DNA from: an uncultured Pelagibacteraceae bacterium
Lineage (GTDB): Bacteria > Pseudomonadota > Alphaproteobacteria > Pelagibacterales > Pelagibacteraceae
Direction of reading: 5' to 3'
DNA: 54,755 nucleotides
Assembly: GCA_902601235.1 (NCBI GenBank)
Contig: CACKMG010000004.1
Coordinates: forward strand, 1 to 54,755
Shown: positions 11,114-47,788 of the stretch, piece after piece
Layout of the letters: every line of letters starts with the position of its first letter
Numbering within the stretch: the stretch's first letter is position 1
The notes under the pieces: generated by a model
Database searches by the model: none
What the model was told of the DNA's origin: nothing
The model's input: only the letters and a program-made list of their open reading frames with translations
Translations under genes and position numbers: made by a program

Positions 11114-11114
11114 T

Positions 11115-14092: not shown

Positions 14093-14097
14093 CACTT

Positions 14098-19468: not shown

Positions 19469-20632
19469 ATGAGAAAGATAATCATATTTTATAATTTCAA
19501 AGGTTCAGCAGAGACAGAGTGGTTATTACCTATTTTTGAGTATCTTAAAAAAGATTACTTAATTTTCACAATATTTAAAAATCATCAAGCGTTTTTATCT
19601 TTAAAACAAAATAAAACAAATTTTAAGATTTGGAAAAATATTTCTAAAAATTATTATATTGAAAAAAAAAGTGATTTTTTTATATCAAAAATTTTAATAT
19701 ATATTTTTAATAATTTTTTAAAAAACGAAAAAATAGTTAATTTACTGAGAAAAAATATTTATAATTTATCTTCTATAAAAAAAATTATAAAAAAAAACGT
19801 AACTTTTAAAAATTTTCAATTATCATATTTTTTTTCTGAATTTGGTTTTTCATCAGGGTGGGTTGATTATTTAAAAAAAACAAAAAAAGTTAAGATAATT
19901 CATTATCCAAGTACACCACAAATTTATTTAAATGAAATTAAAAAAAAATATTCATTAAGAGGTGATCTACTTTTTTTAAATTCATTTTTAGATAAAAAAA
20001 TTTTTCAAAAAAAAATCCAAAGAAATAAAATTTTTATCTCAGGTAATCCCAAATATGATCCAAAATGGCTTAATCGATATTACAAAAAAGAAGACTCAAA
20101 AGATAAGATTATAATAGCATATGTTTCAAGATTTGATTATGTCAACGCTCACTATAAAAAATTATTAGAAAAACAATTAATTGATCTAATTGAAATATTA
20201 AATTTTTTAAATAAAGAAGTAGTTTTTAAATTACATCCAACAAAAAATTCTCAACAATATAAAATTTTTTTGAAAAAATATGCAAAATTTAAATGGATTG
20301 AGTCCAGCAAAAACTTAATTGAACTTTGTCAAAATTGCTTATGTCTAATAACACATCCATTTTCCGCTGCAGGTTTTGATGCCATAATGACGTCAAGACC
20401 AATTTTGCAATTATGGCCTATAGTAGAAAGAGAATTCAAAAAATCAACAAGTTATGAAACATTAAAATTGATTAATGTCTCAAACTCTAAAGATGATTTT
20501 AAAATCAAACTTCAAAAAATTATAAAAAAAAAAAAGATTTCACATTCTAATTTTAAAGAATTTTTTCCGGCAAGAAAAAATACAATTAAAAGAATATTAT
20601 CCCAATTAAAAAAAATAGAAAAAAAAAACTAA
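19469..20632 (+). CDS. GT-B-like glycosyltransferase or glycerophosphotransferase-like protein
   Basis: This 387-aa Lys-rich cytoplasmic protein has a C-terminal half with GT-B features. IAYVSRFDYVN opens the second Rossmann domain and EVVFKLHPTKNSQQ (Lys-x-His-Pro) matches TagB/polysialyltransferase-like enzymes. ITHPFSAAGFDAIMTSRPI matches the nucleotide-binding loop followed by PI/PV. The N-terminal half has only the weak GSAETEWLLPIFEYL. It is 27 bp downstream of the flippase gene. Its stop overlaps the convergent AroE-like gene by 4 bp. Donor unknown. Confidence 0.6.
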   Translation: MRKIIIFYNFKGSAETEWLLPIFEYLKKDYLIFTIFKNHQAFLSLKQNKTNFKIWKNISKNYYIEKKSDFFISKILIYIFNNFLKNEKIVNLLRKNIYNLSSIKKIIKKNVTFKNFQLSYFFSEFGFSSGWVDYLKKTKKVKIIHYPSTPQIYLNEIKKKYSLRGDLLFLNSFLDKKIFQKKIQRNKIFISGNPKYDPKWLNRYYKKEDSKDKIIIAYVSRFDYVNAHYKKLLEKQLIDLIEILNFLNKEVVFKLHPTKNSQQYKIFLKKYAKFKWIESSKNLIELCQNCLCLITHPFSAAGFDAIMTSRPILQLWPIVEREFKKSTSYETLKLINVSNSKDDFKIKLQKIIKKKKISHSNFKEFFPARKNTIKRILSQLKKIEKKN

Positions 20633-21393
20633 AAAAATTTACTTAAAATTTCTAAAGATTTCTTAGCTTGCAATGAATTCATACTTAATCCATTGTAATA
20701 TTTAATTTTATTTTTTTTTGATTGGTAAAATAATTTCGTTTTTTGTGGACTGTAAACTATGTCAAAAATTTTACATTTTTTATTAAGAAATCTGTAATTG
20801 GAGTCTGTCAAAGGACTTTTATTTAAAAATTGGTTACTTAAATTGCTCCCCAAAGGTGAGCAGTTAATAAACAAATTTACATCTATTAGATCATTATTAA
20901 AAATTTTTTTTCTTAATAATATATTTCTATTTTTAAATTTTAAATTTTTTTTAGAAATTATTATAAATTTAGATTTTTTGTATGCATTTAAAAGGTTTAA
21001 AAAAATTGCTTTTCCAGTGCCACCATATCCATAAATTAAAATTTTTGTTTTTTTTTTGATTTTTTTAATTTTTTCAAAAGCACCATACACGTCTGTGTTA
21101 TACCCAAAAAAATTAAATTTATTTTTTACTATTAAATTAACACTTCTCGCTTTTAAGCTAAAACGGTCTTTTGGAATGCTTAATTTATGTACTTTTTCTT
21201 TATAAGGCATCGTGATTGCTGCTGCTTTAAAATTTAAATCATATCTTAAACTGTTCATTTTTTTTGAGAATTCTTTTGGTTTAATTTCAATTGGTATCAT
21301 TTTGCAGTTAATTTTTTTTTTTAAAAAAAATTTTTTCCATATTTTAATTGATCTTGGGCTTTTTAATGGGAAACCTATAATACCACAGTACAT
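20629..21393 (-). CDS. Shikimate-dehydrogenase-like oxidoreductase with altered substrate pocket
   Basis: This is a 254-aa AroE-family NAD(P)-dependent enzyme. The catalytic Lys (MPYKEKV, Lys65), Asn86 (SVNLIV) and Asp101 (GYNTDVYG) are present, as is the dinucleotide loop YGYGGTGKAIF (121-131). CSPLGSN and NGLSMNSLQA near the end are also typical. The N-terminal substrate motif, normally GNPIxHSxS, reads GFPLKSPRS, so one of the two carboxylate-binding serines is lost. The NVT before the Lys is replaced. It overlaps by one base the DAHP-synthase-like gene and shares an operon with a CMP-sugar synthetase. A substrate other than dehydroshikimate, such as a deoxy-ulosonate, is therefore likely (inference). 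Confidence 0.82.
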   Translation of the reverse strand: MYCGIIGFPLKSPRSIKIWKKFFLKKKINCKMIPIEIKPKEFSKKMNSLRYDLNFKAAAITMPYKEKVHKLSIPKDRFSLKARSVNLIVKNKFNFFGYNTDVYGAFEKIKKIKKKTKILIYGYGGTGKAIFLNLLNAYKKSKFIIISKKNLKFKNRNILLRKKIFNNDLIDVNLFINCSPLGSNLSNQFLNKSPLTDSNYRFLNKKCKIFDIVYSPQKTKLFYQSKKNKIKYYNGLSMNSLQAKKSLEILSKFF

Positions 21394-22298
21394 TAAATAA
21401 TTTTCTTATTAACTATTTTTGATAATTTATTTATTCTAGATTTTAAATTGGCAAATTGTTTAAAATTAAGCGGCTGGAGCGGATCAACAGCAGAATTTTT
21501 TGGGTCAGGATGCATTTCAATGATTAATCCATCACATCCAGCAGCAACAGACGCCAGTGCTAAAGGCTCAACCCATGGAGCCCAAAATGAAGCATGGCTT
21601 GGATCAGATATAATAGGATAGTTACATATCTCCTTTAATGCTGGTATTGCTTGTATATCCAAAGCAAATCTTGAAGTTTCTCGATGTGTATGTGGAATAG
21701 AAACACCTCTTTCACATAATATTAATTTATTATTACCCTCAACAAGTATATGTTCTGCTGCACCAAGCAAGTCTCTGATACTTGCTCCAAAATGTCTTTT
21801 TAAAATAATTGGTTTGTTTAATTTTGCTATTTCTTTTAATAATTCTAGGTTTTGCATATTTCTTGAACCTATCTGTAAAATATCTGCAGTCATACTTATT
21901 CTCTCTAAGTATTTTATTTCTGTTACTTCTGTGGTGACTAATAAACCTAAATGTTTTTTTACTTCATCAAGCCATTTCATACCTTCATCTTTTGTTTCTA
22001 GATATTTTTTTGATCTGTAAGGAAATGTAAGTGGTTTGTATGCGTGACCTCTTAAAATTTTTACTCCTTTTTTTTTTAGAAATTCACCAACTTTGAAAAT
22101 CAATTTTCTACTTTCAACACCATTCGGTCCTGCAATAATTGGCAAGTTTTTTTTTGAAAAAGAAACTCTGTTATTCACTTTTACTGTTATATTTTGTTTT
22201 TTCGTAATTTCAGGTATTTTATATTTTATGTCATCTTGAGTAATATCTTTAGTTGGATTTTTATTTGATAAATTATTGATAAAGATATTTTTTGACAT
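21393..22298 (-). CDS. DAHP-synthase-like (type I-beta) PEP-aldose aldol synthase, probably altered specificity
   Basis: This 301-aa protein aligns with AroF-type DAHP synthases rather than KdsA, because it has LQIGSRNMQNLELLKE (141-156), LILCERGV and SDPSHAS (His235). The residues IEMHPDP (Glu261) and VDPLQPL (Asp272) also fit. Two key changes stand out. The metal-binding Cys of AGPCSVES is Asn59 (AGPNGVES), as in metal-independent KDO8P synthases. The KPRT acceptor-phosphate motif is KPLT (88-91), losing the Arg. It likely condenses PEP with an aldose phosphate other than erythrose 4-phosphate. The operon neighbours (AroE-like, Gfo/Idh, GT, CMP-transferase) suggest a 3-deoxy-2-ulosonic acid for the glycan (inference). 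Confidence 0.82.
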   Translation of the reverse strand: MSKNIFINNLSNKNPTKDITQDDIKYKIPEITKKQNITVKVNNRVSFSKKNLPIIAGPNGVESRKLIFKVGEFLKKKGVKILRGHAYKPLTFPYRSKKYLETKDEGMKWLDEVKKHLGLLVTTEVTEIKYLERISMTADILQIGSRNMQNLELLKEIAKLNKPIILKRHFGASIRDLLGAAEHILVEGNNKLILCERGVSIPHTHRETSRFALDIQAIPALKEICNYPIISDPSHASFWAPWVEPLALASVAAGCDGLIIEMHPDPKNSAVDPLQPLNFKQFANLKSRINKLSKIVNKKII

Positions 22299-23326
22299 TA
22301 CTTTCCTAAAATACTTTGTTTATCTTTAACTAAACTAGAATTATTATCGTTTAATGTATTATATATTGAATGTAAAACTTTTAGTAAATAATAATTATTT
22401 TTAATCTCTAAATTTTTACTACATATTTTTTTTTTCCCAAAAAATTCTTTTAAAAGTTTATAATGACCATTGCCCATGCCACTTAAAGGTCCTTTGCCAT
22501 GAGAAAATTCCTCACTATTATTTCTATCATATTTTAATATTCCTCTCTTAAAAATATTAAATGTATTTAAGCTAATTCCTTTTACAACAATTCTACCTTT
22601 ATTACCTATCGCATCGATTTCAACTTTATAATCTTTATCAGCCCTTGTTGTAGCTTTTAGAGATGAAATTATATTATTTTGATGTAAAAAATTTATTGAT
22701 ATTAAATCTTCAGCTTGTAATTTTTTTTTATTAAAACCAGCTAATACATTAAATTTTTTAATATTGCCAAATAAGTAAATTAAAGAGTCGAGTAGATGAA
22801 TAGCTTGATTTGAGAGAACTCCACCATCTGTTCTGTATTTACCTCTCCAACTTACTTTGTAATATTTAAAATTTCTTTTCCAAATAAGAGTTGCATCAAT
22901 TAAGGATATTTCTCCAAGTTTTTTTTTAGATATTTCAGATCTTAATTTTTGAATAGCTTTGTTATATCTGTTTTGGAATGCAACCCAACATTTTACTTTA
23001 AATTTTTCAGTGACTTTGATTAATTTTTTAGCATGTTCCAATTTTAAAACCATAGGTTTTTCAATAAGTACATTTGCTTTTTGTCTTAAAAAAAAATCTG
23101 CAAACTTAAAATGTAAATGCGAAGGTGTTGCTATTATTGCGTAATCAAATTTTTGTTTACTTTTTTTTACATCGTCTAAGTTTTTATAGATATTTAAATT
23201 TTTTGTTTTACTATTCCTTGTGATATTTTTTTCTAAAATGCTTATATCGTTTTTAAGTTTTAACTTTTTAAACATTTCTAAATAATATTTTCCTGAAGTA
23301 CCAAATCCTACTATAATTATTTTCAT
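22298..23326 (-). CDS. Gfo/Idh/MocA-family NAD(P)-dependent oxidoreductase
   Basis: This is a 342-aa two-domain oxidoreductase. The N-terminal Rossmann domain has VGFGTSGKYYLEMF and YAIIATPSHLH, then the family EKP motif (VLIEKPM, residues ~87-92). The C-terminal domain has WRGKYRTDGGVLSNQAIHLLDSL, matching the G-G-x-x-x-D/N...H-x-x-D active-site region. Such enzymes oxidise or reduce sugar ring positions. The stop/start overlaps with both neighbouring genes (one base each) put it firmly in the operon with the DAHP-synthase-like and GT genes. Its substrate is unknown. Confidence 0.85.
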   Translation of the reverse strand: MKIIIVGFGTSGKYYLEMFKKLKLKNDISILEKNITRNSKTKNLNIYKNLDDVKKSKQKFDYAIIATPSHLHFKFADFFLRQKANVLIEKPMVLKLEHAKKLIKVTEKFKVKCWVAFQNRYNKAIQKLRSEISKKKLGEISLIDATLIWKRNFKYYKVSWRGKYRTDGGVLSNQAIHLLDSLIYLFGNIKKFNVLAGFNKKKLQAEDLISINFLHQNNIISSLKATTRADKDYKVEIDAIGNKGRIVVKGISLNTFNIFKRGILKYDRNNSEEFSHGKGPLSGMGNGHYKLLKEFFGKKKICSKNLEIKNNYYLLKVLHSIYNTLNDNNSSLVKDKQSILGK

Positions 23327-36896: not shown

Positions 36897-37916
36897 CTAA
36901 TTATATTTTTTAACCTTTTTTATTTTGCCAAAAATAAACGGAAAATGATTCTTAAGATACCATTTCCATCTTGAAATATATATATTTCGAGAATTGTATC
37001 CAAAAAATATTTCATGATCATTTTGTTTTTTGGTGCTAAATTTTTGTGCAGCACTGACAATATTTGACTTTACATATGTTATTCCATTACATTTAGAGAG
37101 AATTAACATTTCTATTACTGCCTCTTTCCCCAACTTGAATCTGTGATCTGTTCTTGGATATATTTTAAAAGAATCAATTTTAGTCATTCTATAAGATGGA
37201 TAATATATTAATTTATCTTTATATTTTTTTTTTAGTCTGTCCAAATAATCCTGCTCCTCAGTAACTAAAAAAACTTTATTATATTTATATCTTTCAATTA
37301 ATTGATCTATATTATCTATCATTTCAGAAATAGTTGAAGGATAAGCATGTCTCCTAGCTGTTTTATAACTAGACCCTCTAAAATGAACTCCAAGTATATT
37401 ATCATTTCGGAAAAAATTTTTCTTAAAAAAAATATTAGCTTCATTGGTGAATTTTTTTTTGATTTTAATTTTATTAAAAACTTGTTTAAGTTTTTTATCT
37501 TGAATATCTATAGCCATATTTTTTTGAAATTTATCACTCGAAAAAATTAAATTTGAACTTTTATAAACATCCTCAATTTTAAAATTATTTATTCTTTCAA
37601 AATAGTAATCCCAAGCATTAAATGAATTATCTACTTTCTTTTCTTCATTATAAATTGTCGTAAAATTTTTCATATCAATTATTGGGATAAAGCGATTATC
37701 TTCACAAAACTTTAATTGATTTAAAACAAATGTCAGATTGGAGAAGAGTCCTGCGCCTGGGGACCTGTTTATTATATAAAAAATTTTGTTGGGGTTTTTT
37801 TTTCCTAAGGAAATATATCTTAATCCTCTATTTATTAGATATTTATCTTTATTAAATTTTCTCTTAAAGTAAGCCTTCGGGCCTTGATTTGTTAAATATT
37901 TTTTTAATAAACTCAT
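36897..37916 (-). CDS. Fucosyltransferase-like glycosyltransferase, paralogue 2 of a tandem pair
   Basis: This is a 339-aa protein resembling NodZ/O-fucosyltransferase-type GT-B enzymes. IFYIINRSPGAGLFSNLTFVLNQL is an N-terminal Gly-rich start. LGVHFRGSSYKTARRHAYPST carries the H-x-R-G motif that binds GDP-fucose in this superfamily. KVFLVTEEQDYLDRL and KEAVIEMLILSKCNGITYVKSN follow. GDP-fucose can be made by gmd and fcl (51451-53447). Its ATG overlaps the stop of the paralogue at 37916-38938. The two share a 36-residue identical block encoded by a 109-bp perfect DNA repeat, although the rest has diverged. Confidence 0.75.
   Translation of the reverse strand: MSLLKKYLTNQGPKAYFKRKFNKDKYLINRGLRYISLGKKNPNKIFYIINRSPGAGLFSNLTFVLNQLKFCEDNRFIPIIDMKNFTTIYNEEKKVDNSFNAWDYYFERINNFKIEDVYKSSNLIFSSDKFQKNMAIDIQDKKLKQVFNKIKIKKKFTNEANIFFKKNFFRNDNILGVHFRGSSYKTARRHAYPSTISEMIDNIDQLIERYKYNKVFLVTEEQDYLDRLKKKYKDKLIYYPSYRMTKIDSFKIYPRTDHRFKLGKEAVIEMLILSKCNGITYVKSNIVSAAQKFSTKKQNDHEIFFGYNSRNIYISRWKWYLKNHFPFIFGKIKKVKKYN
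37583..37691. repeat. 109-bp perfect direct repeat, copy A
   Basis: Base-by-base comparison shows 37583-37691 to be identical to 38590-38698 over 109 bp, with mismatches starting immediately on both sides. Each copy lies in the same reading frame at the corresponding place of two tandem fucosyltransferase-like genes. The spacing is 1007 bp, almost exactly one gene length. Confidence 0.97.
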
Positions 37917-38938
37917 TACTTATTTTTGAAACCACCAATAATCTCAGGAGCCATATTTTTGTAATACCACATTAATGGAGCAATATATTCATTAGAGGTA
38001 TTCAATCCATTAAATAAAGAGTAATATTTAATTCTATTTTTTTTATCTAAAAACTTAACAAATTCACTTACGTTTGTTTGAGTATGTAAAAAACCTCTGC
38101 ACTTTGAGATGATCAAAGCATCTAAAAGAATTTCACATCCAAGTCGATATCTATGTAATTTTCTTGGAAAAATTTTAAAAGCATTGTCTTTGTTAGATCT
38201 GAACGTATCTAAATAATACAAATTATTTTCAAAATTTTTTTTCATTTTTTCGAAAAATTGCTTATCTTCGGTACACAAAAAAATTTTTTGATATTTATAT
38301 GAGGAGACAAGTTGATTTATTTTATTTATTGTTTGACTATGTGTTGCAGGAAAAGGATGGTTTGCTGAAGTTTTGTAACTAGTACCTCTATAATGTACAG
38401 CCAAAGTATTCGTATTAAGAAATTTTTTAAAAAAATCATCTGATTGATCTAAAAATTTTTTTTTAATTTTGAAATAACTTGAACCTATATTTTGAAATTT
38501 TTTATTTGAAATAGTGTTATTAAATTGCTTAAAAAATTTATTTTTTGTAATGATTACACGTCTAGATTTATAAACTTCTTCAAGCTCATAATTATTTATT
38601 CTTTCAAAATAGTAATCCCAAGCATTAAATGAATTATCTACTTTCTTTTCTTCATTATAAATTGTCGTAAAATTTTTCATATCAATTATTGGGATAAAAT
38701 TGTTTTTTTTTGCTATTTCTAAATGATTGAATACATATATTAAATTTGAAAATAAGCCTGCACCGGGCGATCTTTTGATGACATAGAATATCTTGTTTTT
38801 ATTTTTTTTTCCAAAATTGTAAAAATCAAAGTTTATCTCTAGTTTGGAGTTTATTTCATTTTGGTCAAATAAAGGTGCAGCATCTTTTTCAAGAAGAAAA
38901 TTTTTAAGAATCTTAGACAATTTTTTAAATTTAATCAT
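37916..38938 (-). CDS. Fucosyltransferase-like glycosyltransferase, paralogue 1 of a tandem pair
   Basis: This is a 340-aa relative of the next gene. It has IFYVIKRSPGAGLFSNLIYVFNHL, LAVHYRGTSYKTSANHPFPATHS (H-x-R-G-type donor site), IFLCTEDKQFFEKM and GCEILLDALIISKCRGFLHT. The region FIPIIDMKNFTTIYNEEKKV and the following 16 residues are identical to the paralogue. It lies 11 bp downstream of the phosphonoacetaldehyde-reductase-like gene and so at the distal end of the phosphonate operon. GDP-fucose as donor is inferred from family and from gmd/fcl in the window. Confidence 0.75.
   Translation of the reverse strand: MIKFKKLSKILKNFLLEKDAAPLFDQNEINSKLEINFDFYNFGKKNKNKIFYVIKRSPGAGLFSNLIYVFNHLEIAKKNNFIPIIDMKNFTTIYNEEKKVDNSFNAWDYYFERINNYELEEVYKSRRVIITKNKFFKQFNNTISNKKFQNIGSSYFKIKKKFLDQSDDFFKKFLNTNTLAVHYRGTSYKTSANHPFPATHSQTINKINQLVSSYKYQKIFLCTEDKQFFEKMKKNFENNLYYLDTFRSNKDNAFKIFPRKLHRYRLGCEILLDALIISKCRGFLHTQTNVSEFVKFLDKKNRIKYYSLFNGLNTSNEYIAPLMWYYKNMAPEIIGGFKNK
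38590..38698. repeat. 109-bp perfect direct repeat, copy B
   Basis: This is the second copy of the repeat at 37583-37691, with the same orientation and same codon phase. It codes for the block from FIPIIDMKNFTTIY to WDYYFERINN. Synonymous positions are also identical, which protein-level selection would not produce. Confidence 0.97.
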
Positions 38939-38949
38939 ATTAATTTAAA

Positions 38950-40074
38950 TCAAACTTTGTTAATTTTACTAAAATTTTTTATTTCGTTATTTTGAATAAT
39001 TCTATACAGATCTGTCTTATCAAGTTCTATTGGATTGTTCTTTAGTCTATCTAAATTTGTTTCATTTATAATATTTTGAATCTCTTTTTTGATATTTATG
39101 TTCAATTTTTTAAAATTTATTTCTAAACCAAGATTATCTATTATTTTTTGATAAAATAAATTTAAATCCTTAATTGAATTAGTTTTCGTAATTTTGAATA
39201 ATTTTTTAAATCTATTATTAATATTAATTTTTTTTTTAGCCCTTTTAGAATTGATAAAATTAAAAAAAAGAAAACTATTTATGGTCAGTGTAACGGCATG
39301 TCCATGACTTAAATTGTAGTAAGTGCTAAAATAATAAGAAACTGCATGAGGTCCATTTGTTTTGGCAATATTAATTGCTTTTCCTGAAAAGTTAGATGAT
39401 CGAGATATTTCTATTGAGCTTTTTTTATCATTTGATCTAATATATTTACGCCAGTTTTTAAATGCTAATTTTAGAGATCTTAAGGAATATTTAATGCTTT
39501 CTTTAGTAGAATTTACCGAAAATAACGACTCAGTTGATTGACATATAGTATCCATAAGACTACTTGCTTTAACATAATCAGAAGATTTCAAGGAAAACTC
39601 AGGAACAATTGAAAAATAATTAGGTTTTACTAAATTACTTGAGTAAGAAAATTTTTTATTTTTAATAAAAATTGTTCCAAATTTTGTTACTTCTGCACCA
39701 GTCCCAGCGGTAGTTGGTATTATCAAAGTAGGAATCTTTTTTTTAATTTTAAAAGTCAGATTTTTTTCAATTATTTTTTTTATATTTTTTTGACCAAAAA
39801 AAACACTACTTAACTTGCTATAGTCAATTGATGTTCCTCCTCCAATACCCAATATCATATCTGGCTTAAATTTATTTATTATTTTTTGAATTCTTAAAAA
39901 TTCTCGCAACTCAGGTTGTCGTCTCGTTTTATAATATATATAGGTATCTTTTTTTTTTAAGAGTTTTAAAATTCGATCTCTCGCACCTGAAAATTTGAAT
40001 GAATTTTGTCCAGTTATAATTAATATTTTTTTATTAATTATTTTTTTTTGAATATTTTTAAATTTAATTTCCAT
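38950..40074 (-). CDS. Iron-containing alcohol dehydrogenase, probable phosphonoacetaldehyde reductase
   Basis: This is a 374-aa group III alcohol dehydrogenase. The NAD loop GGGTSIDYSK is at 78-87 and PTTAGTGAE at 120-128. The metal-ligand frame sits at the family spacing: Asp175, position 179, His243 and His257. Position 179 is Gln instead of His, so the metal site is slightly altered. Directly after ppd and pepM, the natural reaction is reduction of phosphonoacetaldehyde to 2-hydroxyethylphosphonate, as PhpC does. That product is the substrate of the oxygenase at 14098-15417. The reaction is assigned from family plus context. Confidence 0.85.
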   Translation of the reverse strand: MEIKFKNIQKKIINKKILIITGQNSFKFSGARDRILKLLKKKDTYIYYKTRRQPELREFLRIQKIINKFKPDMILGIGGGTSIDYSKLSSVFFGQKNIKKIIEKNLTFKIKKKIPTLIIPTTAGTGAEVTKFGTIFIKNKKFSYSSNLVKPNYFSIVPEFSLKSSDYVKASSLMDTICQSTESLFSVNSTKESIKYSLRSLKLAFKNWRKYIRSNDKKSSIEISRSSNFSGKAINIAKTNGPHAVSYYFSTYYNLSHGHAVTLTINSFLFFNFINSKRAKKKININNRFKKLFKITKTNSIKDLNLFYQKIIDNLGLEINFKKLNINIKKEIQNIINETNLDRLKNNPIELDKTDLYRIIQNNEIKNFSKINKV

Positions 40075-40080
40075 TAAAAT

Positions 40081-41184
40081 TTAATTACTCATAAAATTTT
40101 TTTTAATTTGAATCAAATCTCTTGGTCTTTCTAAATTATTTATTGATTTATTCTTTATTCTTACTTCTAAAAAACTTGGACCTTTACATTTGATAAATGA
40201 ATTTATATTTTTTTGCATTTCTTTTGAATTTTTTATTAGATGATAGTTTTTAAATCTTAGAGATTTTGCAAAATCTTTTAAATTAATTTTTTCTATAAAT
40301 GTTTTTTGACTACCAACTGACTCATGTACATTATTGTTTAATAAGATATATTTAAATTTACTTGAGGCTATATTAGCTGCTGTGAAAATAGATCCTAAAT
40401 GCATCAAAAAAGAACCATCCCCATCAAGACAGTATGATTTACCTTTAAAAAATTTTGAGATAGTGGATGATATCATGGCGGAATGCCCCATTCCTCCTAC
40501 CATATAAAAATCTTTTCCCTTATTAAGAAACTTCTTATATTTTCTTAACTGATATAATTCCCTTGAAGTAAAACCAGTGGTAGCAATTATTTTTGATTTT
40601 TTTTCTATTTTTAAGAGTAAATTTTCGATAAACTTAAATCTATCAATCGAAAACTTATTATTTTTGGTAGTATTTTTTTTATTACTAACTAAAGTTTTTT
40701 TTTCAATTAAACATGCAACTGGCTTATTATTTTTTTTTGAATAATTAATTAGATTTTTAATTTTTTTAATATCATGATTGCTTCTTAATATTAAGGTTTT
40801 GATTTTTAACAATTTAAGAATTTGCAAAGTTATATTTCCTTTTGCATTATGTTGTGGTTCGTCGTTGTTAAACTGTGGGGAACCTCGCCAACCAATTATT
40901 AATAATATTGGTATTGAGTAAACATTTTCATGTGCAATTGAAACAAGAGGATTTATCGCATTCCCTAGACCAGAATTTTGAAAATATACACAAGGAATTT
41001 TTTTAGTAGACAAATGATATCCTATTCCCATCGCAACAGCACTTCCCTCATTTACAGTAACAAAATGATTTTTTTTACTATTAATTAAATTAGAAAATTT
41101 TTTTAAAACACTATCAGGAACTCCTGAAAAAAAATTTATTTTAGAATTATCTAAAATCTTAATCAACCTTTTTACTTCAATCAT
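40081..41184 (-). CDS. ppd: Phosphonopyruvate decarboxylase
   Basis: This is a 367-aa thiamine-diphosphate enzyme. It converts 3-phosphonopyruvate to phosphonoacetaldehyde, the irreversible step that pulls phosphonate synthesis forward. It has NEGSAVAMG (45-53, with the ThDP-activating Glu), QNSGLGNAINPL (69-80), GWRGSP (98-103) and DEPQH (108-112), all typical of Ppd. The ThDP/Mg motif runs from GDGS (255-258) to NNNVHES (283-289). Its start overlaps the end of pepM by 8 bp, so the two are translationally coupled. Confidence 0.93.
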   Translation of the reverse strand: MIEVKRLIKILDNSKINFFSGVPDSVLKKFSNLINSKKNHFVTVNEGSAVAMGIGYHLSTKKIPCVYFQNSGLGNAINPLVSIAHENVYSIPILLIIGWRGSPQFNNDEPQHNAKGNITLQILKLLKIKTLILRSNHDIKKIKNLINYSKKNNKPVACLIEKKTLVSNKKNTTKNNKFSIDRFKFIENLLLKIEKKSKIIATTGFTSRELYQLRKYKKFLNKGKDFYMVGGMGHSAMISSTISKFFKGKSYCLDGDGSFLMHLGSIFTAANIASSKFKYILLNNNVHESVGSQKTFIEKINLKDFAKSLRFKNYHLIKNSKEMQKNINSFIKCKGPSFLEVRIKNKSINNLERPRDLIQIKKNFMSN

Positions 41185-42475
41185 TTTTAATTAAATTTAT
41201 TATCTTGCTTATAGGTATAATTTTTCTTTCCAATTCATATGATCTTCCATTTATCAGAATACTTTTTACCGCATTTTCCATTGCAGGATATGCCGCTCTA
41301 AGTAAATGATTTGCGTAAATAACAATTTTAAAACCGTTTTTTATAAGCTCTTTTTCTCTTACATTTGAGTAAGTAGATGGAACAGCTACCATTGGTTTAA
41401 AATATTTACTTTTTTTAAACTCTTTGGCAAAGGAAAAAATTTGTTTTGTATTCTTTTCTTTACTATGAATTAGAATAGCATCAGCTCCAGCTTTGGAATA
41501 AGCGTTTGCTCTTTTTAATGCGTCTTTAACACCTTTATTGAGAATAAAACTTTCAATTCTTGCTATTGCTAAAAAATCACTATTTTTTCGAGAGTTTACT
41601 ACTTTCTTAATTTTTTTTGAAAACGAGCTAATACTATCTTGTTTTGCACCTTTTTGATTTAAAAATAATGAGTTTTTTTTAAGTCCAATTTTATCCTCCA
41701 TAATTATTGCTGATACGCCAGATCTTTCAAGAGACCTGATTAAATAGGAGATATGTTCAATTTGCCCTCCATTGTCTGCATCAAATATAAGAGGCTTAGT
41801 AGTTACATCGAGCATATCATTCAATGATATTATTCTTGAAGAAAAATCAACTGAGGAATTGTCAGGCTTTCCTTTGGTTGCCGAGTCAGTAAGACTTGAT
41901 GACCACATAGCATCAAATTCGTTAATATATTTATTTTTAACTAATTTTGTATTTTCAATAATTAACCCAGTGAGAGAGTTGTGGGACTCTAATACTTTTA
42001 CTATTGGTTTTGAATTTATTAGTCTTTTTAATACTGATATTCTATTTTCACTATTTATGCCTGCTTTTTCTATTTTTAATTTGATTTCTGATGATGAAAT
42101 ATTTTTTGTATAAGGAATTTCAATCAATTTACTTTTTATATTTTTTAGAGTTTTAATTACTTTTTTTCTTAATGTTTTTTGAATACCATTTTTCCAATCA
42201 TCCCCATGTAAAAAATAATCTGGTTTATATTTTTTTATATTAATTGTATAATCCCAATGATCTTGCTCAACAATTTGATTTACCAGTTTTAAACCTGATA
42301 CTATTTTAAATCTTTCTTGATAGCTTAGCATTGGAATTTGTTTATATTCTGAAATAGCTTTGTCTGTTAAAAGCCCAACAATTACATAACCATACTTTGA
42401 GGCTTTTTTTAATAAATTGATATGGGCACTGTGTAAAACATCAATTGCAAGAGGTACGTAGATTTTTTTTTTCAT
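41177..42475 (-). CDS. pepM: Phosphoenolpyruvate mutase with N-terminal cytidylyltransferase-like domain
   Basis: This 432-aa fusion protein makes the C-P bond by rearranging PEP to phosphonopyruvate. Residues 1-~135 form a cytidylyltransferase-like domain: PLAIDVLHSAHINLLKKA has an H-x-x-H motif (HSAH, 15-18) and ISSSEIK (126-132) the family ending. Residues ~150-432 are the mutase: WSSSLTDSATKGKPD, FDADNGG (231-237) and the diagnostic EDKIGLKKNS (260-269). Similar fusions, such as fosfomycin Fom1, cytidylylate 2-hydroxyethylphosphonate. The domain here may therefore prepare a CMP-phosphonate for transfer to the glycan. It overlaps ppd and the nucleotidyltransferase gene. Confidence 0.95.
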   Translation of the reverse strand: MKKKIYVPLAIDVLHSAHINLLKKASKYGYVIVGLLTDKAISEYKQIPMLSYQERFKIVSGLKLVNQIVEQDHWDYTINIKKYKPDYFLHGDDWKNGIQKTLRKKVIKTLKNIKSKLIEIPYTKNISSSEIKLKIEKAGINSENRISVLKRLINSKPIVKVLESHNSLTGLIIENTKLVKNKYINEFDAMWSSSLTDSATKGKPDNSSVDFSSRIISLNDMLDVTTKPLIFDADNGGQIEHISYLIRSLERSGVSAIIMEDKIGLKKNSLFLNQKGAKQDSISSFSKKIKKVVNSRKNSDFLAIARIESFILNKGVKDALKRANAYSKAGADAILIHSKEKNTKQIFSFAKEFKKSKYFKPMVAVPSTYSNVREKELIKNGFKIVIYANHLLRAAYPAMENAVKSILINGRSYELERKIIPISKIINLIKND

Positions 42476-43188
42476 TTAAATATCCTTTTTGCTATTTGAT
42501 AATCATTAAAGGTATCGATTTCCATATATTTACCTTTAACACATGAGGAATAAATAATTATTTTTTTTTTTACAAGATAATTAAAAAAATCATGCATTTG
42601 GAGTGATTTAGAACTACATGTTTTTTTTATTTTGATGTAATTCTTTATTAAAATAGGACCAATCAGTTTAGAAAATTTAAATATTCCCAAAAACTCACCA
42701 TTGCATTTATGAGTTGCAATTTTTTTCCCTATTTTTAATACTTTACCGTTTTTCATAATCACTTTGTCTGCCTGACTATGTGGATGATCAAATCTATTAA
42801 TATAACGATTTTTCCATTTTTTATCTATCGCAAGAGCAAAGTTTTTTTTAGTTTTAATAAATTGATTTAATATTTTTTTTTCATAAATAATATCTGAAAA
42901 ACAAACAATTATATCATCATCAAAGAATTTTTTTGCATAAAACAATGAGTCAAGTTGTTCATTTTTTTTATAATTTTTATTATCATAATAGGTAATTGAT
43001 TTATAATTTATTTTTTTTTTCTTAAAGCCCCTCACTACAGCAATCTTACTTATTTTTAAGTCTCTAAAAAAATCTATTTGTCTTTTTATAATTGTTTTAT
43101 TATTTATTTTTATCAAACATTTAGGTTTTTTTTTTGTAATTTGTGGAATTCTTTTACCTTGTCCAGCAGCAATAATTATTGCTTTCAT
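42472..43188 (-). CDS. LicC/PntC-like sugar or phosphonate nucleotidyltransferase
   Basis: This is a 238-aa NTP-transferase of the small LicC type. AIIIAAGQGKRIPQITKKKPKCLI is the G-x-G-x-R...P-K signature (residues 3-26). NEQLDSLFYAKKFFDDDIIVCFSDIIYE has the metal Asp, and FDHPHSQADKVIMKNGKVLKIGK and GKYMEIDTFNDYQIAKRIF close the fold. LicC and PntC enzymes make CDP-choline or CMP-phosphonates. The gene overlaps pepM by 4 bp, which favours activation of the phosphonate. It could act beside or instead of the cytidylyltransferase domain of PepM. Substrate inferred. Confidence 0.82.
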   Translation of the reverse strand: MKAIIIAAGQGKRIPQITKKKPKCLIKINNKTIIKRQIDFFRDLKISKIAVVRGFKKKKINYKSITYYDNKNYKKNEQLDSLFYAKKFFDDDIIVCFSDIIYEKKILNQFIKTKKNFALAIDKKWKNRYINRFDHPHSQADKVIMKNGKVLKIGKKIATHKCNGEFLGIFKFSKLIGPILIKNYIKIKKTCSSKSLQMHDFFNYLVKKKIIIYSSCVKGKYMEIDTFNDYQIAKRIFK

Positions 43189-43191
43189 AGT

Positions 43192-44376
43192 TTAAGTTCT
43201 TTCTAAAATTTTGAAGATATTATCTATACCATTATTATTTTTAGGAAAGATCATATTTTTCAAATTTTCTTTATTCTTTAATATGTCAGCTTCTTCATTT
43301 TTGATATGACTTACTTCTGCAATTAATTTACTTAATTCACCAACATTGTTTGCAATTTTACCAATATTTTTTTTAATAACGTTAATTTCTAAGCCTGTAT
43401 TTTTTTCGAATTCGTCATAGTCTGGTACATAAAAAATTATTGGCCTATTTAAATAAAGATAATCGAAAACTACACCAGAATAATCAGTTATAAGATAATC
43501 GCATTTATTCAAAATAGAGTTTAAATCTGTTTCGTAATCAGCAAAAATAATTGAATCTTTCTCTTTCAAAAAATTTATCATTTTTTCTATCACAGGATTA
43601 TAGCGCCTATCTCCATCCTTTTTTTCTGAATTCATATGTTTTTTTAATAACAACAAAGAATTATTTTTTTTTAAAGTTAAATTTAACTCTTCTAATTCAT
43701 CATTATTTTTTACATCTCTAAATATTTCCAAACCATCTTCTCTCCAGGTAGGAAAATATCCAAAAATTTTTTTCTTGGAATCTTCAATTCTCTTAATTAA
43801 TAATTTTTCGGCATCAATATAAAAATTATTTAATTCTTTTTCGAATATAAGGTTTCTGGGTAGATTAGACTGAAGAAGGTTATATTTGTATTTTGGAAAT
43901 CGATTTAAAAACGGTTGAGCTAATTCTTTATTAGGATAAACAAAATATTTTTCAGTTCTCTTAAATATGAAATTATTGAAAAAATTATCAGAATGTTTTA
44001 TCTCATTTACCTTTTTAGGTAATACTCCGTGCCACAAAAGTATACATTTTGAATAGATAGTAATTTTTGAGTTGATATCTTCTTCAACAAAATTGAATAA
44101 ATGCCACTCAGCAACTAAACAAAAGTAAATCCCCTTTAAAGAATTTTTTTTATATACTTCAAAATTATTATGCTTAAGAAATTTTACAATTTTTTCATCT
44201 TTTGTTATCCAGATACATCTGTAATCATTTTTGAATCTATTTAAGTAAAGAAATAAATGTCTCGAATTATCTGCAAACCTAAGACCAGCTCTATCTCCAA
44301 ATATCAATAACTTTTTTTTTTTAGGAAAACTTTTCATTATAAAAAAAAATAAGATTTTTATTAAATCTCTTAACAT
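43192..44376 (-). CDS. CDP-glycerol glycerophosphotransferase (TagB/TagF)-like transferase
   Basis: This is a 394-aa protein. KLLIFGDRAGLRFADNSRHLFLYL is the typical start of the CGPTase family. LLWHGVLPKKVNEI, IFGYFPTWREDG, LLLKKHMN and CDYLITDYSGVVFDYLYLNRPIIFYVPD are all hallmark blocks, so the catalytic part is intact. These enzymes move a phospho-alcohol from a CDP carrier to a glycan. With a phosphonate cytidylyltransferase next door, transfer of a CMP-activated phosphonate such as hydroxyethylphosphonate is the most economical reading. Glycerol- or ribitol-phosphate transfer remains possible. Gaps to both neighbours are 3 bp. Confidence 0.87.
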   Translation of the reverse strand: MLRDLIKILFFFIMKSFPKKKKLLIFGDRAGLRFADNSRHLFLYLNRFKNDYRCIWITKDEKIVKFLKHNNFEVYKKNSLKGIYFCLVAEWHLFNFVEEDINSKITIYSKCILLWHGVLPKKVNEIKHSDNFFNNFIFKRTEKYFVYPNKELAQPFLNRFPKYKYNLLQSNLPRNLIFEKELNNFYIDAEKLLIKRIEDSKKKIFGYFPTWREDGLEIFRDVKNNDELEELNLTLKKNNSLLLLKKHMNSEKKDGDRRYNPVIEKMINFLKEKDSIIFADYETDLNSILNKCDYLITDYSGVVFDYLYLNRPIIFYVPDYDEFEKNTGLEINVIKKNIGKIANNVGELSKLIAEVSHIKNEEADILKNKENLKNMIFPKNNNGIDNIFKILERT

Positions 44377-44379
44377 GAG

Positions 44380-45705
44380 TTATATATTTTTCTTTTCAAT
44401 TAAAGAAAGAGAGTTTGCAGTTGCTCCTTTTTTGGGAAAAGAAATTGTAATTAAAAATGCAAAATTATTATTTTGAAAAATTCTTCTTTTATATTTTTTT
44501 ATATTATTGAAATAAAATTTACTAATATTTTTGTTATCAAATTTTTTTGTTAGAATACAATGAGTATTTTTATAGTATTTAGTCAAATTATATGTTCTTT
44601 TTTGATCAGTAAATACAATTACATCATTTTCCAAATTGTCCTGAAAAATTTTGTTAAACATTACACCATGTTTTGTGAACAAAACTAAAGTATAATTTTT
44701 TGTAAATTTAGCAATTTCCCAAAATATTTTTTCTGAATATTTTGTTGTTTTATTATTTTTTGTAGAGTGAATAAATCGTGTCAGCCATGTAAATATTTTT
44801 TTCCATTTTTGTGAAACTGCAGTTTCCTCACTCAACATTATTATATCAGACTGAACTTGTTTTGAATGACCTAAGGAAACAATGTCATTTTTAGATGGAT
44901 TATTATTATGATAAAGCGATTCTAGATTCTCTGTCGCCATAATAAGGGGCTTGCCATACTTTTTACAGTATGAAGAAATTTTATTTATTCCTTGGTATAA
45001 ATTATAGTCACCTATTTCAGCAGACAAATCACCTCTATCAATCATAATAGCGTCAGAAAATTTAGATATTTCATTTACATTTTTTAAACCTTCACTATTT
45101 TCAACTTTTGATATGAGTATTAATTTAGGAAATTTTTTTCTAATTTTTTTTATAATTTTTTTATTTTGAACAAAACTTAAACCTATTGCATCAATTTGAG
45201 AATTTGAAAATATCTTAAAGTATTGCATATATATTTTTTCTTGTAGTCTATTATCATAAACAGAGTCAGGAATATTTAATCCTTTTTTTGGTTTTATAAT
45301 GCAGTCCTGAAGAGATTTACCTTTGATTGTTTTTTTGTTCTTTGAGATTAGTTTAAATAAATATTTTCCATCATCTAAAGAAAATTTTTTACTTTTTATT
45401 TTTTTTGGCAGAGGTTTTGTTAGTAAAATTTCATTAGCTTTGGAATTATTTCCATATTTAAAAGTAATAATTTGATTTTTTTTAATCTTTAGGGGAATAA
45501 TATTTTTTGTTCTAGGTTTTACACCAGGAAAATCAATTAGGATAACACTATTGGGTTTTATTTTTTTTATTTTTCTTATAGCAGATTTATGCCATGCTAT
45601 TGTATTATGTGAACTATTAATTCTTACAATTTCTGTTTTATTTAAAATGTATTTTAAATTTTTGGATTTTATAGTTTCTGGTCCTATTGTAGGAAGAATT
45701 TTCAT
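44380..45705 (-). CDS. Pyruvate-kinase homologue within the phosphonate operon
   Basis: This is a 441-aa protein with the pyruvate-kinase barrel. It has LPTIGPET, IVRINSSHN (Arg28, Asn30 and Ser32 as in RxNxS), LIDFPGVKPRT (Asp58, Arg65) and SKVENSEGL (Lys200, Glu202). MIDRGDLSAEIGD (Asp226), IMATENLESL (Thr258) and MLSEETA follow. Most catalytic residues are kept, but the DTKGPEIR block reads DFPGVKPRT, changing the Thr and Lys beside the potassium site. The lid region is divergent. A ~120-aa C-terminal domain follows. It sits among genes that consume PEP, so it may supply, drain or bind PEP/pyruvate or act on a PEP-like enol phosphate. Not a typical housekeeping pyk; role unknown. Confidence 0.82.
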   Translation of the reverse strand: MKILPTIGPETIKSKNLKYILNKTEIVRINSSHNTIAWHKSAIRKIKKIKPNSVILIDFPGVKPRTKNIIPLKIKKNQIITFKYGNNSKANEILLTKPLPKKIKSKKFSLDDGKYLFKLISKNKKTIKGKSLQDCIIKPKKGLNIPDSVYDNRLQEKIYMQYFKIFSNSQIDAIGLSFVQNKKIIKKIRKKFPKLILISKVENSEGLKNVNEISKFSDAIMIDRGDLSAEIGDYNLYQGINKISSYCKKYGKPLIMATENLESLYHNNNPSKNDIVSLGHSKQVQSDIIMLSEETAVSQKWKKIFTWLTRFIHSTKNNKTTKYSEKIFWEIAKFTKNYTLVLFTKHGVMFNKIFQDNLENDVIVFTDQKRTYNLTKYYKNTHCILTKKFDNKNISKFYFNNIKKYKRRIFQNNNFAFLITISFPKKGATANSLSLIEKKNI

Positions 45706-46688
45706 TAATAAAATAATTTGTTTTTTAAAGTATATATATATTTTTGTGTAGACCTTCTAGCATAAGTAAAATTTTTTTTTGATAGTATCTTTTTTCTAAA
45801 TTCACTACCCGATATTTCTTGCAAATTTTTGTGTTTACAATCTGTCCTTAATACAATTTTATCACATGATTTACAAAAATAAGATCCTTTATGTGCAAAT
45901 ATATCAATTTTCAATTTTTTTGAAAATTTTTTTACATAATTGAAAGCTTCTAGAGGCTTGTAAATATTCTCAGCACCAGCATGATCTCTACCTATTGTAA
46001 ATCTGTCAAATCCAATCATTTCTCTTAAATTTAAATGATGTATCGCTTCTCTTGGACCTGCATAATGCATATTTGCAATAAAAGGACCAAATAAAACTTT
46101 ATTTTTATATTCCACATTTTTAATTAAATTATTAAAAATTTTCCTAAGTATTTCATTCTTGAAATCACCCTTTTTTTTCATTCCAATGAGGGGATTTATA
46201 AAAACTTTTCCTCTTTCTTTTATTAATCTTTTTATTATCTCTTCATGTCCAAAATGAGGAACATTTCTAGTTTGGAAAGAACTTAAATAATATTTCTTTT
46301 TTAAAAGTTCAACCTTTCTAATTAATTTTGAATTATAATCATTAATATATTTGTAATGTTTTTGATATTTTTGTTTTAATTCAACATTGTATGAAAACTT
46401 ATTTCCAAAATTAAAAAAAATTTTTTCACCTATATAATTTTTCTTATTAATACCAAAAATTTTTTTCATAAAATTCTTCTTTTCAATAATGAATGTAAAT
46501 TTTTTATTATATCTAAAATATTTAATACCAACTGGTAAAACTAAGGGGAAACCATAATATGGTTTTTTAATGAATTCTTGTAATTTTTTTTCACTTAAAA
46601 AATTAGATTGATATTTGATAATACCCTGTTTTAAATTTGCATAATCGATTAAATACCTAGTTTGGGGGTCATTAAAATTTAACTTCAT
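45705..46688 (-). CDS. ATP-sulfurylase-like nucleotidyltransferase
   Basis: This is a 327-aa homologue of sulfate adenylyltransferase. FQTRNVPHFGHEEII (138-152) stands for the canonical QTRNPxHRGHE, with Pro and Arg changed but both His kept. INPLIGMKKKGDF, YAGPREAIHH and IGRDHAGAENIY (232-243) are strongly conserved. A zinc-type cluster (Cys272, Cys275, Cys284, His286) and ISGSEFR follow. It is shorter than usual (about 390 aa). It lies in the phosphonate operon, overlapping both neighbours. Known SAR11 genomes lack assimilatory sulfate reduction, so if the host is SAR11 the purpose is not cysteine synthesis. PAPS for glycan sulfation, or adenylylation of a phosphonate, are possible. Confidence 0.82.
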   Translation of the reverse strand: MKLNFNDPQTRYLIDYANLKQGIIKYQSNFLSEKKLQEFIKKPYYGFPLVLPVGIKYFRYNKKFTFIIEKKNFMKKIFGINKKNYIGEKIFFNFGNKFSYNVELKQKYQKHYKYINDYNSKLIRKVELLKKKYYLSSFQTRNVPHFGHEEIIKRLIKERGKVFINPLIGMKKKGDFKNEILRKIFNNLIKNVEYKNKVLFGPFIANMHYAGPREAIHHLNLREMIGFDRFTIGRDHAGAENIYKPLEAFNYVKKFSKKLKIDIFAHKGSYFCKSCDKIVLRTDCKHKNLQEISGSEFRKKILSKKNFTYARRSTQKYIYTLKNKLFY

Positions 46689-47788
46689 ATGTATTTATTA
46701 ACTAAAAATAAATATTTTTTACAATTTTTTTCAAAATCAAATCTATCCAACATTGCAAAGGCTTTCTTTGATTTTATTTGAAATATTTTTTTATTTTTTT
46801 TGAAATTAATGATAATTTTTGCTAGACTATCATAATCACCTACTTTAAATAAGGAACCTATTTTACCATTTAACAGAATTTCCTTTGGTCCCGTAGGACA
46901 GTCAGTTGATATTACATATTTTTTTAATGTTTGTGCTTCTAAAATAACGTTAGGTAAACCTTCATATTTTGATGATAACACAAATAGATCTGAAGCTTTT
47001 AAATATGGAAATGGATTAGTTTTATAATTAATAATTTTGATATTTTTTTGTAATTTATATTTATTTATCATAGTTTGAATATTAAATTTATTACTTCCAT
47101 ATCCTATTATTATTAGTTCACATTTGATCTTTTTACTTACAATTTTTATCGCTTCTATAAGTGTTGAATGATCTTTTTGATCTGTGAATCTTGCTATATT
47201 AATTATTTTTAAGAATTTAGTCCTGAAAATTTTATTTTTAACTTGATATTTACTTTTTTTTAAAATTTCTTTTTTGTCTAAAGGGTTATAAATAAAATTA
47301 GTATTAATTTTAAACTTTTTTTTAAATTCCTTTTGAAATTCTTTGCTATTTACAATAATGCAATTTGCCTTTTTAAAAAAAAATTTAAAAACTAAATTTT
47401 TTAAAAAATTTTTATTCCAACCAGATGGTGAAGAATTTGATCTAGATATAATTTTGAAATTTAAAAAATAAGATAAAATCAAAGCATAAATGTTTGCTTG
47501 AAAAGAAAATAAAACAAAATTTTTATCATTAAGATATTCTTTTAATAATATAGAAAGACAGCAAAAATATTTGTAATATTTTGAGTATTTTTTTTGATTT
47601 TTTTTGATAACATTTTTGATAAGAATTTTTTTATTAAAGAATTTATTAAAATTATCGTCAAATGTTATTAGTTGGATATTGCTTTTATACTGAGAAATAT
47701 AATTTGCTACCAAAATAAGATTTTTTTCTACCCCACCTCCTTCCATTGAGGGCATAAAGAAAATTAATCTTTTTTTACTTTTCTCCAT
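46685..47788 (-). CDS. GT4-family glycosyltransferase
   Basis: This is a 367-aa GT-B enzyme. LIFFMPSMEGGGVEKNLILVANYI is the start typical of WecG/RfaG-like GT4 enzymes. ILSYFLNFKIISRSNSSPSGWN and CIIVNSKEFQKEFKKKF follow. LKIINIARFTDQKDHSTLIEAI opens the C-domain, and LFVLSSKYEGLPNVILEAQTL is the E-G-L-P-x-x-x-x-E donor site. It is the first gene of the large minus-strand phosphonate operon and overlaps the ATP-sulfurylase-like gene by 4 bp. The 76-bp divergent gap to 47865 should hold the operon promoter. Confidence 0.88.
   Translation of the reverse strand: MEKSKKRLIFFMPSMEGGGVEKNLILVANYISQYKSNIQLITFDDNFNKFFNKKILIKNVIKKNQKKYSKYYKYFCCLSILLKEYLNDKNFVLFSFQANIYALILSYFLNFKIISRSNSSPSGWNKNFLKNLVFKFFFKKANCIIVNSKEFQKEFKKKFKINTNFIYNPLDKKEILKKSKYQVKNKIFRTKFLKIINIARFTDQKDHSTLIEAIKIVSKKIKCELIIIGYGSNKFNIQTMINKYKLQKNIKIINYKTNPFPYLKASDLFVLSSKYEGLPNVILEAQTLKKYVISTDCPTGPKEILLNGKIGSLFKVGDYDSLAKIIINFKKNKKIFQIKSKKAFAMLDRFDFEKNCKKYLFLVNKYI

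Follow-up and report, generated by a model that had tools for sequence, protein, structure and literature searches.

The 54,755-nucleotide stretch analysed here (the window; contig CACKMG010000004.1 of assembly GCA_902601235.1) is a surface-polysaccharide island of a SAR11-type (Pelagibacterales) genome that carries genes predicted to make and activate two phosphonates. In the account that we propose from the sequence, 2-hydroxyethylphosphonate (HEP) would be made, part of it would be trimmed to hydroxymethylphosphonate (HMP), separate cytidylyltransferases would activate each, and both would likely be attached to glycan; we regard this account as evenly poised between right and wrong. We read the arrangement as a division of labour, in which the cytidylyltransferase domain (CyT) fused to the phosphoenolpyruvate (PEP) mutase PepM would serve HEP and a separate LicC-like enzyme would serve HMP.

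Judged from the enzyme families, PepM would convert PEP into phosphonopyruvate, phosphonopyruvate decarboxylase (Ppd) would yield phosphonoacetaldehyde, and an Fe-dependent alcohol dehydrogenase (Fe-ADH) would reduce this to HEP, part of which 2-hydroxyethylphosphonate dioxygenase (HEPD) would turn into HMP and formate. The PepM-fused domain would form CMP-HEP from HEP and CTP, as in Fom1, and the LicC-like enzyme CMP-HMP from HMP and CTP. Less surely, an enzyme resembling adenosine 5'-phosphosulfate (APS) kinase may place a 3'-phosphate on the CMP-phosphonate, and transfer to the glycan would fall to a TagF-like, a LicD-like or another enzyme. Parts of this scheme are already published. Rice 2019 (PMC6697681) covers the cytidylyl activation of phosphonates and describes clusters that hold two nucleotidyltransferases, Acker 2022 (PMC8931226) deals with surface phosphonates in SAR11, and Lockwood 2022 (PMC9381506) with the occurrence of HEPD in Pelagibacterales and a possible HMP conjugate.

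The window has a G+C content of 20-26% and belongs to genome G000 (839,126 bases, 44 contigs, 62.5% complete). Its surface setting is indicated by GT4 and NeuB genes identified by family, and by further glycosyltransferases and an ABC exporter recognised by eye. Comparisons were made with a set of 297 Pelagibacterales genomes and with a survey of 103 CyT-PepM loci (genomes and loci are designated G and L, respectively). The survey comprised the window, 25 SAR11 loci and 77 named loci, the latter being the usable part of the best 80 of at least 588 relatives and not a random sample.

HEP synthesis genes and the fused cytidylyltransferase

Ten consecutive minus-strand genes, from 47788 to 36897, look like one operon because they overlap or lie at most 11 bases apart. 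Their order is GT4 glycosyltransferase, ATP-sulfurylase-like (SAT-like), pyruvate-kinase-like (PK-like), TagF-like, LicC-like, CyT-PepM, Ppd, Fe-ADH and two paralogues. The phosphonate genes at 38950-43188 are all full open frames with family matches far beyond chance. The preliminary description had recognised pepM, ppd and an Fe-ADH gene here, and their families fit a predicted HEP synthesis. PepM (41177-42475, minus strand) scored above the NCBIfam TIGR02320 cutoff (356 bits vs 320) and retained the PEP mutase signature EDKxxxxxNS as EDKIGLKKNS, a signature found in 103/103 surveyed loci. Ppd (40081-41184, minus strand) reached 345 bits against TIGR03297 (cutoff 312.5), and the predicted phosphonoacetaldehyde reductase, the HEP-forming Fe-ADH (38950-40074, minus strand), matched PF00465 (E 7.5e-27) and PF25137. 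Fusions of this kind occurred in 26/297 Pelagibacterales genomes (49-100% identity, own included) and were usually followed by Ppd and Fe-ADH. An Fe-ADH relative came after Ppd in many loci; in 6/25 fetched SAR11 loci its place was taken by a protein nearest to 2-aminoethylphosphonate (AEP) aminotransferase, which fell below the family cutoff in both cases tested, and no AEP-aminotransferase-like protein was found among the 52 window proteins. A family of ~250 residues, a PhyH-like oxygenase by eye, also recurred in pepM loci (a cluster including L066, L068, L088 and L089).

The cytidylyltransferase-like N-terminal domain that the preliminary description had pointed out in PepM was borne out. 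Residues ~1-135 form a Fom1-type CyT (PF01467 at residues 12-132) and residues 146-432 the PEP mutase. The motifs HxxH, GDDW and ISS are present as HSAH, GDDW and ISSS, with alanine for the glycine of HxGH; the domain matched that of Fom1 at E 8e-35, and its model overlaid the CMP-HEP-bound Fom1 domain at 1.0 Å over 126 residues with 41% identity. On these three grounds the fused CyT is most likely a HEP cytidylyltransferase. Fom1 of the Streptomyces wedmorensis fosfomycin pathway (PMC6697681; 5x3d) shares the fusion order and the CTP-site motifs, and its domain makes CMP-HEP, as predicted for the window domain. Unlike Fom1, the window fusion is surrounded by polysaccharide genes, and the island also holds HEPD. 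Among the SAR11 fusions, 26 with that of the window, four (L071, L080, L086 and L090) have lost a CTP-site motif.

A LicC-like enzyme in a putative C1-phosphonate clade

The LicC-like gene (42472-43188, minus strand; PF12804/PF00483) shares four bases (42472-42475) with pepM, the overlap that had been described earlier. The top structural match of its model was the phosphonate cytidylyltransferase PntC, and by structure and tree the protein has the PntC/LicC fold and groups away from sugar-1-phosphate enzymes, which leaves a role as sugar-1-phosphate nucleotidyltransferase unsupported. In the comparison of both CyTs with Fom1, PntC and LicC that the preliminary description had put forward, the fused domain kept its CTP-site motifs and the LicC-like protein showed no grouping with sugar-1-phosphate enzymes. 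At the GxG(T/S)R...PK consensus (Rice 2019) the protein reads GQGKR, eight residues, PK; lysine thus replaces T/S, a place occupied by glutamate in ST0452 in the alignment. It shares with PntC the fold, the position beside PepM and, by eye, an EID-type C-terminal signature. The PntC enzymes tested prefer AEP (PMC6697681), whereas the predicted substrate here is a C1 phosphonate. The tree placed the window protein in a 10-row clade (support 96/88), whose nine other rows comprise three with methylphosphonate synthase (MpnS) adjoining (L160, L194 and L221), five beside PhnD/PhnC and one with neither.

LicC-like genes that carry a long N-terminal extension directly adjoin PhnD/PhnC transporter genes in L246-L251 and L256 (L250 is the same place as L128, the sole one tested, where Pfam identified an N-terminal HTH). 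Among the genomes with such genes, G149, G171, G253 and G256 lack a full-length CyT-PepM match, so an imported phosphonate might be cytidylylated there. Viral contigs yielded 14 weak relatives of LicC and no HEPD relative.

HEPD lies apart from the operon

The phosphonate gene set is not confined to 38950-43188, as had first been described: a HEPD gene and an APS-kinase-like gene stand as a pair at 13583-15417, ~26 kb from pepM on the opposite strand. The HEPD protein (14098-15417, plus strand), predicted to convert HEP into HMP, matched PhpD/HEPD (3g7d) at E 1e-82 against E 3e-10 for MpnS (6b9s). It has the HEPD-type motifs NNGHLEQA and YLEP...PH, which we take to hold the metal ligands. The glutamine of NNGHxxxQ, presumably the MpnS-defining residue, is alanine in the window and glutamine in L160, L194, L221, L067, L069 and L071; this, together with the better HEPD match, rules out MpnS. 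Full-length HEPD was found in 3/297 Pelagibacterales genomes (G000, G177 and G220), two other matches being short and weak, and in all three genomes, which also carry CyT-PepM, HEPD directly adjoins an APS-kinase-like gene. Much of the window's gene order around HEPD is shared by G177, which also has MpnS beside pepM. In the window, NeuB and the APS-kinase-like gene are separated by methyltransferase, carbamoyltransferase and PIG-L genes (10445-13484), which is not so in G177 (L121).

Known antibiotic pathways include both HEPD and a Fom1-type CyT (PMC8976061, PMC6697681), and the genes might instead make a diffusible phosphonate natural product. We consider this highly improbable, as polysaccharide genes surround the phosphonate genes, a Pfam scan of 21 window proteins showed no obvious ligase or resistance family, and phosphonate genes likewise adjoin polysaccharide genes in Acker 2022 (PMC8931226). 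That study of SAR11 and Prochlorococcus phosphonoglycans has in common with ours pepM in SAR11 and the surface-decoration hypothesis, and its main text does not contain the terms HEPD, hydroxymethylphosphonate, nucleotidyltransferase or cytidyl. The Pelagibacterales HMP genes of Lockwood 2022 (PMC9381506) resemble the window in that HEPD occurs with surface genes; an adenylylsulfate transferase is mentioned nearby, and the term cytidyl is absent from the main text.

A second cytidylyltransferase tends to accompany predicted products other than HEP

The preliminary description had called two cytidylyltransferases in one operon unusual. This did not hold, since Rice 2019 (PMC6697681) reports fusions to both kinds in 42 PepM proteins and lists clusters that pair a fused enzyme with a separate one, and since a second CTP-type enzyme lay within five genes in 8/9 C1 (MpnS/HEPD) and 16/20 AEP loci of our survey, compared with 7/60 HEP loci. 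Product class was set by the neighbours within 4-5 genes, and loci without a class were dropped (13 in the CyT-motif count, 14 in the second-enzyme count). The Fisher values against HEP loci (C1 6e-6, AEP 3e-8) are too small, because the loci share ancestry, most AEP clusters carrying one inherited change from HPGH to HPGL, and because at least two contigs were double-counted (L072/L161 and L075/L164). L194, whose MpnS lies seven genes from PepM, was counted as HEP; its reassignment gives 9/10 for C1 and 6/59 for HEP. The C1 exception, L080, has an ATP-sulfurylase-like gene in place of the second cytidylyltransferase. The fused CyT motifs were broken in 19/28 non-HEP loci (HMP 2/3, methylphosphonate 1/4, AEP 16/21) and in 1/61 HEP loci, a count that left out L233, cut at a contig end, and the 13 unclassed loci, five of them broken. 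Fitch parsimony on the PepM-domain tree gave nine changes in CyT motif state. Most simply read, the fused domain would act on HEP, and the second enzyme on whatever other product is made. In L067, L069, L070, L071 and L159, MpnS and CyT-PepM flank a stand-alone cytidylyltransferase of 146-149 amino acids; in L159 the MpnS match is split across two frames.

Besides the shared ancestry and the double counting, several points speak against the pattern and against two activated phosphonates in the window. The window was counted as C1 despite its HEPD lying 26 kb from pepM. L067, L069 and L070, intact and counted as HEP, have MpnS, and their reassignment changes the motif counts to 19/31 vs 1/58. 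The change in the AEP locus L165 is mild (GDDW to GDNW), and the MpnS clusters L067, L069, L070, L159, L160 and L194 all have an intact fused CyT. The specificity of the window LicC for HMP is inferred by association, the protein is at most 36% identical to any other tree row, and the window genome is 62.5% complete.

Alternatively, a single phosphonate may be made, with the TagF-like enzyme transferring HEP from CMP-HEP to a glycan, the LicC-like enzyme redundant or serving a phosphate ester, and HEPD belonging to another pathway that shares the island by chance. The TagF-like, LicC and PepM genes overlap or lie three bases apart, in L229 (a Bacteroidetes metagenome-assembled genome) the gene immediately after CyT-PepM-Ppd-FeADH is TagF-like, the operon alone can make just HEP, and the 7/60 HEP loci noted above also have a second cytidylyltransferase. 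We nevertheless think this unlikely, given that the window LicC groups with MpnS- and PhnDC-linked enzymes, that full-length HEPD was restricted to genomes with CyT-PepM (3/3), and that a TagF-like relative occurs without pepM beside the same SAT-like and PK-like genes. Of the two readings offered in the preliminary description, two activated phosphonates or a division of labour, ours is the division of labour.

A possible 3'-phosphorylated donor

The APS-kinase-like protein beside HEPD (13583-14092, plus strand; PF01583, E 1.5e-14) is proposed as a CMP-phosphonate 3'-kinase. CMP-HMP (or CMP-HEP) would be 3'-phosphorylated to give a donor resembling 3'-phosphoadenosine 5'-phosphosulfate (PAPS) and then passed to the surface glycan, with a sulfotransferase-type transferase in some relatives; we advance this tentatively and with some doubt. 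In Campylobacter jejuni, the O-methyl phosphoramidate (MeOPN) pathway uses a LicC-like cytidylyltransferase and an APS-kinase-like enzyme, which we take to be the families of Cj1415 and Cj1416, and the window is similar by analogy, with the difference that a phosphonate would stand in for phosphoramidate. The proposal was made because Cj1415-Cj1418 yield CDP-phosphoramidate 3'-phosphate (PMC11800397) and because phosphoramidate-like SAR11 clusters carry LicC and kinase genes related to those of the window. Such clusters (L035, L127, L135, L137-L140, L253, L257, L259, L260, L263 and L264) combine glutamine-kinase-like, amidotransferase, LicC-like and often APS-kinase-like genes in several Pelagibacterales genomes. 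The glutamine-kinase-like proteins of the two tested scored 755-779 bits against PRK05849, with the amidate-hydrolase-like protein below cutoff, and none of the 52 window proteins matched the glutamine-kinase-like or amidate-hydrolase-like protein of L035.

NCBIfam proved unsuitable as a judge of kinase substrate, since pepM-linked and sulfurylase-linked kinases scored alike: the window protein reached 125 bits against PRK05541, its best family (cutoff 127), and 60 against apsK TIGR00455 (cutoff 139), and the sulfurylase-linked L123 kinase (G241) 151 bits against PRK05541, likewise its best family, and 77, also below cutoff, against TIGR00455. In the tree the window kinase fell in a 21-row clade (100/99), sister to the G177 kinase (99/95), to which it is 71% identical. 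CyT-PepM was present in 10/21 genomes of this clade vs 26/297 overall (Fisher 8e-7). Besides G000, ATP sulfurylase and CysD were not found in 9/9 of the clade genomes with CyT-PepM, in searches whose positive controls were detected; these nine include G177 and a single-contig genome listed as 99% complete. Four named single-amplified genomes (SAGs) have an APS-kinase-like gene near CyT-PepM with its best match in the window kinase clade (58-72%). Three of the four lacked a detectable ATP sulfurylase and all four CysD; the ATP sulfurylase gene of the fourth SAG belongs to a trio that includes a separate short APS-kinase-like gene. Across the 77 usable named loci, an APS-kinase-like gene lay within eight genes of CyT-PepM in 4/13 Pelagibacteraceae and 0/64 others, and adjacency was therefore rejected as a trait outside SAR11.

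The APS-kinase-like and ATP-sulfurylase-like genes could equally be taken to make ordinary PAPS for glycan sulfation, unrelated to phosphonates, an explanation that we take seriously but would sooner doubt than accept. The window has both genes; kinases of the same clade stand beside ATP sulfurylase in G241 and G101, with a sulfotransferase-like gene near, and the G179 genome has both; the L123 kinase and the pepM-linked kinases score in one NCBIfam family; and G220 has a SAT-like gene adjoining HEPD, with a kinase of a different clade. Set against this are the nine genomes without an ATP sulfurylase or CysD match, the trio in G300 of ATP sulfurylase with its own short APS-kinase-like gene, and the fact that six sulfotransferase-like queries matched none of the 52 window proteins. 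The 3'-phosphate proposal is itself weakened on three counts: G000 has an ATP sulfurylase, so PAPS is possible there; the kinase clade also holds G241, G101 and G179, each with ATP sulfurylase; and neither sulfurylase nor full-length CyT-PepM was found in G288, G253, G058, G003, G238, G133 and G044 of the same clade.

Candidate transferases and the SAT-PK pair

The CDP-glycerophosphotransferase-like gene previously placed at 43192 was confirmed as a full open frame (43192-44376, minus strand; PF04464, E 4.3e-41, 141.5 bits, cutoff 22.1). This TagF-like protein scored below the NCBIfam TarF equivalog cutoff (68 bits vs 550) and so belongs to the fold family and is not TarF; it is a candidate for transfer of a phosphonate or another phosphodiester. 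A copy in G024, 63% identical, has the same SAT- and PK-like neighbours but no pepM with it, which weakens the case for a phosphonate-only gene. A second candidate, the LicD-like protein (6988-7827, plus strand), matched PF04991 below cutoff (E 8e-4, residues 122-199), and G177 (L121) has a relative three genes upstream of its APSK-HEPD pair. These two, or another enzyme, are candidates for the glycan transferase. The sequence of making, activating and transferring a phosphonate in the preliminary description is partly supported, with the TagF-like enzyme as one candidate for its last step.

Sulfotransferase-like genes occur in the pepM or kinase loci L076, L078, L080, L122, L158 and L167. Only that of L078, 37% identical to one in the phosphoramidate-type locus L138, passed the Pfam cutoff; L076 and L158 were weak, and L080 and L122 were joined by similarity with no Pfam match. 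A profile of four sequences (A5) matched 5/15 genomes with CyT-PepM and an APS-kinase-like gene and 1/15 with CyT-PepM alone, four of the five being its own source genomes and G286 new, with no match in G000 or G177. On these counts the idea that one sulfotransferase family is the partner throughout was rejected.

The operon opens with the GT4 glycosyltransferase (46685-47788, minus strand; PF00534, E 3.3e-30), followed by the ATP-sulfurylase-like gene (45705-46688, minus strand; PF01747, E 2.6e-43) and its PK-like partner (44380-45705, minus strand; PF00224, E 5.9e-39). It ends with two proteins that resemble each other (37916-38938 and 36897-37916, minus strand), glycosyltransferases by eye with no Pfam or NCBIfam families. 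Full-length PK-like relatives (at least 42% identity) were found in 6/297 Pelagibacterales genomes, own included, with a SAT-like gene beside them in 6/6; the other pairs, in G024, G027, G053, G192 and G283, are all without a full-length CyT-PepM match. By locus, the pair occurs at 44380-46688 of the window, in L028-L032 and in L237, accompanied by a short APS-kinase-like gene in L030, L031, L032 and L237 and a TauE/SafE gene near it in L028 (Pfam) and in L029, L031 and L032 (by eye). G024, 99% complete, has the pair, and its PF01583 match is partial, in a 150-residue frame common to many genomes. Shikimate-dehydrogenase-like and DAHP-synthase-like genes and one further gene are common to the window (20629-23326) and G024 (L028, 12782-17374), with a carbamoyltransferase-like gene among them in L028. 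Short PK-like genes (~330 amino acids) stand beside sulfotransferase-like genes in L035, L034 (by eye), G286 C33 and G176 C21.

An ATP-sulfurylase-like enzyme that adenylylates a small phosphonate, in place of CMP activation in some strains, would account for G220, where SAT-like, HEPD and kinase genes neighbour one another upstream of pepM and the fused CyT lacks the ISS motif. We give this very little credence: G220 is the one genome that showed the pattern, five genomes with a SAT-PK pair have no full-length CyT-PepM match, and the fused CyT is intact in the window.

Implications

The genes reported in the preliminary description were thus confirmed and their interpretation partly supported. 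No prior statement of the second-enzyme rule, the C1 LicC clade or the 3'-phosphate donor was found in the openly readable literature consulted. Methylphosphonate is a source of marine methane. To our knowledge, the activation and attachment of methyl- or hydroxymethylphosphonate on marine polysaccharide have not been worked out, and we know of no paper on this step. The LicC-like protein is one small, directly testable enzyme whose clade members adjoin methylphosphonate synthase in three other clusters; if the assignment is true, it would found a class of C1-phosphonate cytidylyltransferases, methylphosphonate included. The link between a second cytidylyltransferase and products other than HEP would be of use in predicting product type from sequence. 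Should the 3'-phosphate step be correct, phosphonate transfer and sulfation would follow one logic, and phosphonates would have a route that parallels both sulfation and the MeOPN pathway. The scheme as a whole would offer a testable route by which ocean microbes load phosphonates onto their surface sugars.

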